Shown piece by piece: positions 24,346 to 27,468 of a stretch of DNA of 64,000 nt. The stretch's first letter is position 1; every line of letters begins with the position of its first letter. The DNA is taken from positions 1 to 64,000 of the forward strand of contig NZ_JTEV01000003.1 of assembly GCF_000786105.1 (NCBI RefSeq). The letters run 5' to 3'. Made by a program: the position numbers and the translations under genes. This stretch comes from Bdellovibrio sp. ArHS. GTDB taxonomy: Bacteria; Bdellovibrionota; Bdellovibrionia; Bdellovibrionales; Bdellovibrionaceae. A model generated the notes under the pieces. The model saw only the letters and a list, made by a program, of their open reading frames with translations. It was not told the origin of the DNA and ran no database searches.

Positions 24346-24397
24346 AAACTTGCGAACTTCTCTTTATATTACAGAAGTGTGCACCGATAATGAAACC

Positions 24398-25879
24398 ATG
24401 GGGAATTGGTATTTCTGGATCTTCTTCATAACTGTGATTTCTTTGCCTCAGGCACATAGTGCGGAACCTTTTTTGGGTTGTGAGTACTATTGTGCTGCCA
24501 AGTATACTGTGGGCAGTAGAGGCTGGGATAATTGCATTGTGCAAACACAGACCGAAGGTTATTGCGGGAAACGTCCCGGCAGTTCGACGCCGTCGAGTAC
24601 GCAGACCAGGCAGCCTCCTGATCAAAATAGCGGACAGAATCAAAATAACCAAAATCAAAACCAAAATCAGAATCAGCAAAGCCAGTGTTACACTCAGTAT
24701 GAGAGTCTGCTTCAACAGTGCAACACACAAATTGAAGACACGTCTTATACCTGCGACGAAAAAAATGATTCAGGTATGAATAATGTGGCGACCACGGCCT
24801 CCCAGTTGGCGCTCATGATGGGGCAACAGACTGCCGCCAGTGTGCAGGCCGCCTGCTCCAGAATGGGGGACCTATCGCAAGCGGCGAGTGGGGCCTTGGC
24901 TGCTTATCGTCTGACGTGCAGTGAATCGATGAAAACGTGTCGTACGACCTGTGATGCGGCCGTTGAGTATGTGCGCGCAAATCAAAGCTGTTTTCCAAGC
25001 AATTCCAGCAATCAGTTAAATGCTGTGAATGCCTTATCTCAGGCGCAATCGCGTCGGGATAGATGCGATAACTTCGAAAGCAAAATGAATGAAGCGCAGC
25101 AGGCGATCCAAAACTATGGCGCCACGTCTGCCAATGCTTCGCAATGTGCGGAACAAAATAAAGGCGAAGTTTCAAATGTACCCGACTTCTGTAAATCGAC
25201 GCCGAACTATCCGGGATGTAATCCTGCAGCGCCCGTGGATTGTACCAAACCGGATTTAGCCACCACGAACAAAGTTTGTATATGTACTAAAAATCCCTTG
25301 GATCCCGCTTGCTTCGCGCAGCAAAAAAATTCCGACGGCAGGGTCGTGGGTAACATGATTGATTCCTCCAGTCGTTTGGCAAATAAAGCGGGCGATGATT
25401 TGGGCGGTGATCTTCCCGGACTTCCCGGTATCGAACAGGGCCAACTTCCTTCGGGAGGCTACGGTGATGCCGTTGACGGATCACAAGGCGGTATGGGGGG
25501 CACTTTGGGATCAGGAGGAGATGGCGGCGGTGGAAGCTATTCTGGTTTAAATGGAAGTGGTCAGGCCAGTGACGAAGCTTCTATGAATGTGAATGGCGGA
25601 TATTACGGCAGCGGTGGTGCTCGCGGTTTCGGTTCCGGTGGTGCTGAAGGTGAAGGCCGAGGCGTCGCAGGTCTGGGCCAATCCGCTGCAGCTGCAGGTA
25701 ACGCCGCAAAGGGAGGCCCAGATCTTCGTCAATTCTTGCCGGGCGGAAAATTTGATCCGCGTCTGCGAGGAATTGCGGGAGCCGCCGGGCCTGATGGGAT
25801 TACGGGACCTCACTCAAACATTTGGCATAAGATTCAGAACAGATATAAGGTGGTGACGCCTTCCTTATTGCCATATTGA
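24398..25879 (+). CDS. Secreted Cys/Gly-rich protein, paralog 1
   Basis: The ATG at 24398 gives a signal peptide (MGNWYFWIFFITVISLPQAHSA); a longer frame upstream would hide it. The 493-residue protein has an N-terminal Cys-rich part, a short Gln/Asn-rich linker, then a helical domain with conserved Cys (DTSYTCDEKNDSGM, SQLALMMGQQT, AAYRLTC), a Gly/Ser-rich low-complexity region and a conserved tail (GPDLRQFLPGG, GITGPHSNIW, KIQNRYKV). It is clearly a tandem paralog of the next gene. No known family was recognised. Function unknown; export to periplasm or surface is inferred. Disulfides are likely from the many paired Cys. Confidence 0.8.
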   Translation: MGNWYFWIFFITVISLPQAHSAEPFLGCEYYCAAKYTVGSRGWDNCIVQTQTEGYCGKRPGSSTPSSTQTRQPPDQNSGQNQNNQNQNQNQNQQSQCYTQYESLLQQCNTQIEDTSYTCDEKNDSGMNNVATTASQLALMMGQQTAASVQAACSRMGDLSQAASGALAAYRLTCSESMKTCRTTCDAAVEYVRANQSCFPSNSSNQLNAVNALSQAQSRRDRCDNFESKMNEAQQAIQNYGATSANASQCAEQNKGEVSNVPDFCKSTPNYPGCNPAAPVDCTKPDLATTNKVCICTKNPLDPACFAQQKNSDGRVVGNMIDSSSRLANKAGDDLGGDLPGLPGIEQGQLPSGGYGDAVDGSQGGMGGTLGSGGDGGGGSYSGLNGSGQASDEASMNVNGGYYGSGGARGFGSGGAEGEGRGVAGLGQSAAAAGNAAKGGPDLRQFLPGGKFDPRLRGIAGAAGPDGITGPHSNIWHKIQNRYKVVTPSLLPY

Positions 25880-25911
25880 GACGTTTTATTTTGAGATAGT
25901 TTATACTTTTG

Positions 25912-25951
25912 TAAAGTTGTTGGTCCATAGAACCGATAAATGGTTCTATGG
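25912..25951 (+). promoter_or_regulatory. Sigma-28-like promoter overlapping a 10-bp palindrome before paralog 2
   Basis: TAAAGTTG at 25912-25919 matches the FliA -35 consensus in 7 of 8 bases; ACCGATAA at 25932-25939 matches the -10 in 7 of 8; the spacer is 12 instead of 11. CCATAGAACC (25925-25934) and GGTTCTATGG (25942-25951) form a perfect inverted repeat around the -10, with the ATG at 25948 in the 3' arm. Transcription would start almost at the ATG, giving a leaderless or near-leaderless message. Confidence 0.5.
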
Positions 25952-27468
25952 GAATGAAGTTTTTTGTCGCCTTTTTTTCTTTCTCCTTCCTTTTTTTGGG
26001 AGCTTCCTCATCTTCATGGGCTGGTGAAGCCTGTGGCTCGATGACCTGTCGAGAAGGCCATTTCTGCGAACGAAAGACAGACCCTCTCACTCGCAAGATG
26101 ACGGAAACTTGTAAGCAAGATCCCAATTTTGTGGGACCCACCGCGGGAACTGCGGCGACACCGATGGAGCAATGTCAAAGAACCTGTCAGGCTCCGAAGC
26201 AATGCTACGCGGATAACAACGAGCGTACCAGCTATTCTTGCCGAGAACCCAATGGAACTCCTGCCGCGAATAATGGCCCGAGCTGTGAGCAACAGTATCA
26301 GCAACTTATGCAAGCATGCTCTTCACAACTTGAAGATACTTCCTATACATGCGATGAAAAAAACGATTCCGGAATGGCGGAAGTGACCGATACGGCGTCA
26401 CAGTTGGCGCTCATGATGGGGCAGCAAACCTCGGCGAGCATTCAAGCCGCATGTTCCAGAATGGCGGGGCTGACTCAAGCAGCGAATGCGGCGGTGGCGG
26501 CTTATCGCCTCACTTGCAGCAATTCGATTTCAAGTTGTAAGTCTGCGTGCAGTGCTGCTAAGACCTACGCGGAACAACAGGCACATTGTTTGGTTGCAGC
26601 AAACCCTGGTGCGAACTATACGGCGATTATTTCACGGGCGGACAGTGAACTGAAGCGTTGTGATAATTTTCAAAATAAAGTCAACGAAGCCAATCAGGCG
26701 ATTGCGAATTTTGGCGCGACATCAGCCAACGCTTCTCAGTGCGCGGCCTTGAATGCCGGGGATGAAACACCGACCCCGCAATTCTGTGCCGCAAATCCCA
26801 CGCATGTCAGTTGTTTAGCCCAGCAAAATGTGGACTGTACGAATCCGACGGTTGCTGCCAGCAATAAAGTTTGTATCTGTCAGAAGAATCCTTTAGACCC
26901 CGCTTGTGTCACGGCTCAAAAAGCAGGCGACTCAGGTGTGGTGACAGGGATGATTGATTCTTCTTCGCGTCTGGCGGCGAAAGCAGGCGGTGATGCCTTA
27001 GGCGGAGATCTTCCAGGCCTACCAGGTTTTGAACATGGGCAACTTCCTTCGGGTGGCGGTCAGGCGATTGATGGGTCCCAAGGTGGATCCGGCGGCTCTT
27101 TAGGCGGCGGTGGCGGTTCCGGCGGTGGATCTTACGGTTCCGCAGGTGGCGGAGCTTCTGGTGACGACAACGGAGCCAACGTGAATGGTGGCTTTTATGG
27201 CGGCGGCGGTGGAAGTCGCTCTTACGCAGGCGGTGGCGACTCCGGCGGCGGCGGACCTGCGGGAGCTTCTCGTGGCGGCGCGGGCAATGGAGCTCCCTCT
27301 GCGAATGGCCCTGATTTAAGAAAGTTTTTACCGGGCGGTCAATTCGATCCGAAACTGCGCGGAGTGGCAGGCGCCGCGGGTCCCGACGGGATCACCGGGC
27401 CTCACTCGAACATTTGGCTGAAGATTCAAAATCGCTACAAAGTGATGGTGCCATCACTTCTTCCATAG
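25948..27468 (+). CDS. Secreted Cys/Gly-rich protein, paralog 2
   Basis: The 506-residue protein begins with a signal peptide (MGMKFFVAFFSFSFLFLGASSSSWA); ATG 25948 or the ATG two codons later (25954) may be used. It repeats the plan of paralog 1: Cys-rich N terminus, DTSYTCDEKNDSGM, SQLALMMGQQT, several Cys pairs, a KVCICQKNPLDPAC block, a very Gly-rich region and the tail GPDLRKFLPGG, GITGPHSNIW, KIQNRYKV, ending PSLLP. Conservation is strongest in the helical Cys domain and the tail, while the Gly-rich part drifts. No known family recognised. Probably from a tandem duplication; export inferred. Confidence 0.8.
   Translation: MGMKFFVAFFSFSFLFLGASSSSWAGEACGSMTCREGHFCERKTDPLTRKMTETCKQDPNFVGPTAGTAATPMEQCQRTCQAPKQCYADNNERTSYSCREPNGTPAANNGPSCEQQYQQLMQACSSQLEDTSYTCDEKNDSGMAEVTDTASQLALMMGQQTSASIQAACSRMAGLTQAANAAVAAYRLTCSNSISSCKSACSAAKTYAEQQAHCLVAANPGANYTAIISRADSELKRCDNFQNKVNEANQAIANFGATSANASQCAALNAGDETPTPQFCAANPTHVSCLAQQNVDCTNPTVAASNKVCICQKNPLDPACVTAQKAGDSGVVTGMIDSSSRLAAKAGGDALGGDLPGLPGFEHGQLPSGGGQAIDGSQGGSGGSLGGGGGSGGGSYGSAGGGASGDDNGANVNGGFYGGGGGSRSYAGGGDSGGGGPAGASRGGAGNGAPSANGPDLRKFLPGGQFDPKLRGVAGAAGPDGITGPHSNIWLKIQNRYKVMVPSLLP

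Follow-up and report, generated by a model that had tools for sequence, protein, structure and literature searches.

A tail-bearing gene pair of Bdellovibrio: a new family of probably exported proteins with a possible link to Tad-type prey contact

Introduction

PEP-CTERM, GlyGly-CTERM, Myxo-CTERM and type IX CTD signals are conserved C-terminal modules that secreted proteins carry behind a low-complexity linker, and the NCBIfam library holds models for them. How Bdellovibrio recognises and grips its prey is an open question. In one Tn-seq study, Bdellovibrio is described as attaching 'through an unknown mechanism', and Bd0150 is listed only as hypothetical (PMC6561027). Myxococcus, also a predator, has several paralogous sets of the Tad-pilus tip proteins KilL/KilM/KilN, which include a TadG-type minor pilin; the authors of that study predicted a tip complex in Bdellovibrio as well (PMC12075869). 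The TAD operon of Bdellovibrio is under FliA control, and flp1, flp2 and flp4 are required for predation and dispensable for attachment (PMC5430801). At the hit locus, the gene for the RHS protein Bd0109 shares a transcript with type IVb pilus genes, and Bd0109 itself binds Bd0108 (PMC3818213).

Here a pair of neighbouring genes in Bdellovibrio sp. ArHS is compared with these systems. The window is the whole stretch analysed, 64,000 nucleotides of contig NZ_JTEV01000003.1. To an initial annotation of the pair, made from the sequence alone, the present analysis adds a TadG operon, attack-phase promoters, a second tail protein and published predation phenotypes.

Results

Two paralogs with a variable middle and a nearly fixed tail

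Both genes lie on the forward strand and run from ATG to stop: gene 1 at 24398..25879 (493 aa) and gene 2 at 25948..27468 (506 aa). Their products are 61% identical over 398 aa (BLASTP, E 3e-131), which confirms the tandem paralogs proposed initially. Each protein consists of a hydrophobic signal-like N-terminus, a variable Cys-containing N-terminal part, a helical head, a Cys segment, a Gly-rich linker and a tail of about 52 aa. By alignment and model, the helical Cys head (residues 97-253) and the Cys segment (254-307) of gene 1 span 24686..25318, followed by a Gly-rich linker predicted to be disordered (308-440; 25319..25717) and the tail (441-493; 25718..25876). The same evidence places the head (113-270) and Cys segment (271-322) of gene 2 at 26284..26913, its linker, likewise predicted to be disordered, at 26914..27309 (323-454) and its tail at 27310..27465 (455-506). 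The DTSYTCDEKNDSGM and SQLALMMGQQT blocks noted earlier are identical in both proteins. In contrast, the signal peptide that the two had been said to share is not a common element: the N-terminal regions are unalignable, the alignment begins at residues 97 and 113, and each protein merely has a signal-like hydrophobic stretch, which in gene 1 has no Lys or Arg in front of it.

Identity between the two proteins is 87% in the tail, 60% in the head, 50% in the Cys segment and 59% in the Gly region. Against close orthologues, dN of the window genes is 0.03-0.06 in the tail, 0.06-0.14 in the head and 0.19-0.33 in the linker, in agreement with the drifting Gly-rich middle and near-fixed tail first described; the N-terminal part of gene 2 reaches 0.24. 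Because of saturation in many dS values, the comparison relies on dN. Fourteen Cys residues are invariant in 17 aligned family proteins. Both window proteins carry this head set together with a Cys segment of the form C..NP..PGC...DC..P..A..NKVCIC..NP.DP.C, and the set is reduced in the operon copies described below. Four-Cys N-terminal modules occur in 10 of 33 rows from the flagellar and U loci (in four rows no head boundary was found) and are thus no general feature.

The family matches no characterised protein

Pfam, NCBIfam and PDB sequence searches recovered no characterised family, as the initial annotation had surmised. Pfam and NCBIfam scans of the window proteins gave only matches under the curated cut-offs, among them DUF885 (E 0.0012 for protein 1 and 0.31 for protein 2), which was rejected. 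At E up to 1, neither a TadE/TadF/TadG pilin domain (PF13400, PF07811) nor, in the NCBIfam scan, a curated C-terminal sorting model was found in the two proteins. A 17-row profile searched against PDB sequences returned a single match (E 0.83), taken as chance, and an Rfam scan of the window gave 0 matches at the gathering threshold.

The monomer models have a mean pLDDT of 58.0 and a pTM of 0.36 for gene 1, and 60.3 and 0.35 for gene 2. The head helices are the confident part of both, bearing out the predicted Cys-rich helical domain, and the tail is predicted to be disordered, with low confidence throughout apart from one short helix around NIWxKIQNRYK. In a Foldseek search of the gene 2 model against the PDB, 0 of 261 matches reached E up to 0.001. 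VIA-align of the same model gave generic helical bundles with a best Z of 11.4; it warns that helical matches under Z roughly 13 may reflect a common arrangement only, and kinship was rejected, also for the alpha-pore-toxin rows. The tail-bearing proteins are best described as a new, unnamed family, probably exported, of predatory Bdellovibrio-type bacteria.

The tail recurs across the order in two main settings

Other proteins with the tail, on whose existence the original proposal depended, were found by profile search across Bdellovibrionota genomes. The profile detects four genes in the own genome: the window pair (E 1.0e-32 and 2.4e-32, both also rows of the profile) and single genes on contigs 13 and 19. 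Of 240 genomes sampled from the phylum, 70 have the tail, comprising 37/37 of the family, 22/36 of the remaining genomes in the order and, with weak matches only, 11 genomes beyond it; the 18 genomes of the genus in this sample hold 2 to 10 copies each. Because both gene position and tail recur across many genomes, the pair and its tail are not a chance arrangement.

Gene maps show two settings. In the window setting, one to four tandem copies lie beside lysC, a lytic transglycosylase gene and the flgF operon, and a glutathione peroxidase gene frequently flanks them on the opposite side. In the operon setting, a TadG-like gene, whose product matches the minor pilin domain PF13400 (E 1.9e-8), is followed by a tail gene and then by a second secreted gene. 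A quick LG+G4 tree, in which several branches are long and some forks weak, unites flagellar-locus, U-locus and some dispersed copies on one branch (SH-aLRT 97); the operon copies, T_L127 excepted, are separate from it. Tandem copies from one genome often cluster together, indicating duplication by lineage. The operon copy is the ancestral-looking member of the family. Recent gene conversion was considered for the window tails and rejected as needless, because each orthologue in two relatives retains its own tail type.

Short remnant tail genes at L090:9983-10303 and G017:C1:1336470-1336565 are signs of gene turnover; in one remnant the linker is gone and a portion of the Cys region is fused to the tail. 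A tail protein was also seen on a contig assigned to a Streptomyces griseus MAG (L099), probably a binning error.

A differently built neighbour carries a related tail

The second secreted protein of the operon (Bd0150-type) has a body unlike that of the tail family and a related tail. In a set of 983 ORFs, its tail profile ranks members of the tail family ahead of all unrelated proteins, and the Bd0149-type and Bd0150-type tail profiles align with each other (P 5e-7). Since this differently built neighbour also carries the tail, the tail acts as a module. The secreted-type family put forward at the outset and a head-linker-tail layout are likewise supported. Bd0150-type proteins occur in 71/240 genomes, all within the order (71/73 there), and TadG-like proteins in 218/240.

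In Bdellovibrionales the tail measures about 55 aa and contains a short motif, S/N-I/L-F/W-xx-I-xx-R-Y, that was searched as a regular expression. Counts over fetched loci refer to sites mostly selected for carrying a tail gene; contig loci duplicate several of the G-numbered genomes, so counts were de-duplicated, and near-copies remain. The motif lies in the last 70 residues of 109/126 tail-profile proteins and 3/1083 others (99/116 and 3/1031 with duplicates removed), figures that serve as support and not as an independent test because the expression postdates sight of the family and the loci were picked for tail genes. All three motif-bearing proteins outside the profile are partners of tail proteins. 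Outside the order, one locus (L121) encodes a TadG-like protein, a tail protein and a small secreted protein whose C-terminal end bears a related motif. Three others (L120:4110-8338, L123:7904-13643 and L125:3634-7199) each encode two large secreted proteins that both end in the short motif; the two genes are direct neighbours in L120 and L125 and are separated by one gene in L123, and there is no TadG-like gene in the stretch fetched around any of these pairs.

FliA-like promoters lie close to the start codons

By sequence, a FliA-type promoter is present upstream of both window genes. That of gene 1 (24358..24390, forward strand) combines a weak -35 (ctttat) with an exact -10, CCGATAA at 24384-24390, 7 bases before the ATG. 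That of gene 2 (25912..25939, forward strand) is an exact TAAAG-N16-CCGATAA, 8 bases before the ATG; this pattern occurs 6 times in the 3.54-Mb genome and the reversed pattern 0 times. Counting CCGATAA-like boxes with up to one mismatch, 5-13 bases before an in-frame ATG or GTG, a FliA-like -10 was found for 39/78 tail genes and for 35/828 other ORFs, a control that includes one truncated family member (L092) omitted from the Fisher test (34/827) and from the de-duplicated counts. The latter are 33/56 for non-operon copies, 5/19 for operon-type copies and 32/782 for other ORFs. In many copies the -10 box ends 5-9 bases before the start, and such boxes also precede a few unrelated genes; in the window the stretches from the box up to the start codon are 24384-24397 and 25933-25947. 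The short spacing from -10 to start suggests that genes of the window type would give leaderless attack-phase mRNAs.

The operon corresponds to Bd0148-Bd0150 of HD100

By sequence anchors, the operon of B. bacteriovorus HD100 maps to Bd0148 (TadG-like), Bd0149 (tail gene) and Bd0150 (second tail protein). Four anchors lead to this assignment. Worked out by hand, the Bd0108 breakpoint (base 97,050, PMC11323537) maps to the same codon in L082, give or take about three bases. NamZ, encoded after the operon on the opposite strand, fits the 'Bd0152 muramidase' (PMC11656739). The Bd0149 substitution G256V (c.767G>T) requires GGN at codon 256, which is GGT in the tail gene; counted from the first Met, neither the TadG-like nor the second secreted gene has GGN there. 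Finally, the best close-upstream FliA-like site among the operon genes is that of the tail gene, which fits Pbd0149. An earlier count by eye from Bd0119 had placed the tail gene at about Bd0146 and was replaced by these anchors. NamZ was also considered as the gene of G256V, given a Gly256 (GGC) from its first Met, and rejected: it matches Bd0152 and lacks a good FliA-like site. For the flagellar-locus trio of HD100 we infer numbers of about Bd0525-Bd0527, counting back from FlgF (Bd0530); supplementary tables aside, a literature search on flagellar-locus genes, Bd0523-Bd0528 included, found no Bdellovibrio paper.

Published phenotypes are available for the operon genes. The transposon mutant Bd0150::tn belongs to class I, in which attachment, killing and rounding of prey are all absent, and the Bd0470 TadC mutant has the same phenotype; Bd0150 is not among the five complemented mutants (PMC6561027). 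Polarity is unlikely because Bd0150 is the last gene before one on the opposite strand. The promoter Pbd0149 contains a FliA motif and is robustly active in attack phase (PMC12622784). Bd0149 G256V is common to two prey-independent biofilm formers, alongside other mutations, and the authors of that study attribute the type II and biofilm phenotype to bd0149 and bd2152 (PMC11323537). Attachment is retained in the flp1/2/4 mutants and lost in the Bd0150 mutant; Bd0150 may thus function independently of the flp pilus.

Discussion

The reading that we favour, with a probability of roughly 0.45, is that the family provides attack-phase secreted heads that dock through a common tail to a Tad-type prey-contact apparatus, the window genes being duplicated heads. 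The window genes would encode proteins of the attack phase, each with a disulfide-rich helical head, a flexible Gly-rich arm and the conserved tail, that are exported to the cell surface. The tail would serve as a docking or assembly motif for a common partner in the Tad-type (type IVb) apparatus. The likeliest partner is the TadG-like minor pilin whose gene accompanies the ancestral members, or an element at the site where it exits. Docking of this kind would apply to proteins of both the Bd0149 and the Bd0150 type, with Bd0150 forming part of a core required for holding on to prey. Tandem copies at the flagellar locus, which differ in their N-terminal Cys regions, could then be interchangeable heads adapting contact to different prey. 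The conserved order of TadG-like, tail and second secreted gene argues for this reading, as do the related tail of the second protein, the enrichment of the short motif in tail-profile proteins, the Bd0150 phenotype, the attack-phase activity of Pbd0149, the FliA-like boxes of the non-operon copies and the tandem duplication by lineage. Against it count the attachment results, which differ between studies, the position of the window copies, which adjoin flagellar and not Tad genes, the 218 of 240 genomes with TadG-like proteins compared with only 70 that have the tail, and the scarcity of close-in FliA-like sites among the operon copies.

In the strongest rival, the tail would be a general C-terminal signal by which Bdellovibrionota export proteins or sort them to the envelope, served by a machine other than Tad, and the heads would do various jobs. 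Tail proteins away from Tad genes, at the U locus, the flagellar locus and dispersed sites, would be expected under such a signal, as would the motif pairs of L120, L123 and L125 that have no TadG neighbour. However, an operon found throughout the order links both tail types to a TadG-like gene, and the five tail proteins found in the own genome are few for a general signal, so that this explanation appears somewhat unlikely.

The operon, the disulfide-rich helical head, the signal-like N-terminus and the flexible arm would suit periplasmic assembly factors, chaperones or a scaffold for minor pilins, that are not exposed at the surface. Lineage-specific tandem duplication and N-terminal parts that vary in length and Cys content are more typical of exposed proteins, and we regard such a helper role as improbable. 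Still less credence is given to accessory proteins of the flagellar sheath or motor. The family-wide position beside the flgF operon (flgFGAHI) and the FliA-like promoters point in that direction, but FliA drives the Tad operon too (PMC5430801), and the mutant of the related Bd0150 has an attachment defect (PMC6561027). The operon, U-locus and dispersed copies do not lie near flagellar genes, and because these copies sit elsewhere a flagellar role was rejected as the main reading.

If docking to a Tad-type apparatus is correct, one proposed system would join the attachment gene Bd0150, the mutated Bd0149, a family of tandem genes and Pbd0149, a promoter with strong activity in attack phase, and the tail proteins may contribute to the predator's grip on its prey. 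The common tail offers a single testable handle on this proposed system. A broader proposition, that Bdellovibrionota rely on the C-terminal motif to fit exchangeable secreted heads into a Tad-type machine for prey contact and that the multiplied heads, the two of the window among them, are the prey-recognition proteins long sought, is quite doubtful at present.

Comparison with known systems

Like the established C-terminal sorting signals, the window proteins have a conserved C-terminal module after a low-complexity linker. Unlike those signals, their tail has no NCBIfam match and lacks a hydrophobic helix followed by a basic end, and no partner peptidase was identified.

The hit locus (PMC3818213) resembles the tail operon in placing secreted proteins, Bd0108 and Bd0109, beside Tad genes; in contrast to this shared setting, no sequence kinship with the tail family was seen, Bd0109 being an RHS/DUF6531 protein. 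At L006:2884-8034 (own contig 13), L064 and L075, a Bd0109-like RHS/DUF6531 gene and the small secreted gene U4687 are found in the vicinity of a tail gene, in L006 and L075 together with genes for trypsin-like proteases. The Bd0109 relative near the contig-13 tail gene is 29% identical in its best segment, and U4687 was rejected as a Bd0108 counterpart for want of similarity; loci of this type are possible second hit-like loci. Elsewhere in the own genome, a cluster at L149:1517-3410 (contig 10), away from tail genes, resembles by eye a Flp pilin with TadE-like minor pilins. A Flp pilin search of this genome gave 3 matches, none over the cut-off, and the Flp_Fap match of L149 is below it. HD100, again by eye, has a second Tad cluster.

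The Myxococcus Kil tips (PMC12075869) offer the parallel of a predator with several paralogous sets that include a TadG-type minor pilin. The window proteins differ from them in having signal-like N-termini and no TadE/G pilin domain, and in sharing a C-terminal tail in place of the pilin helix.
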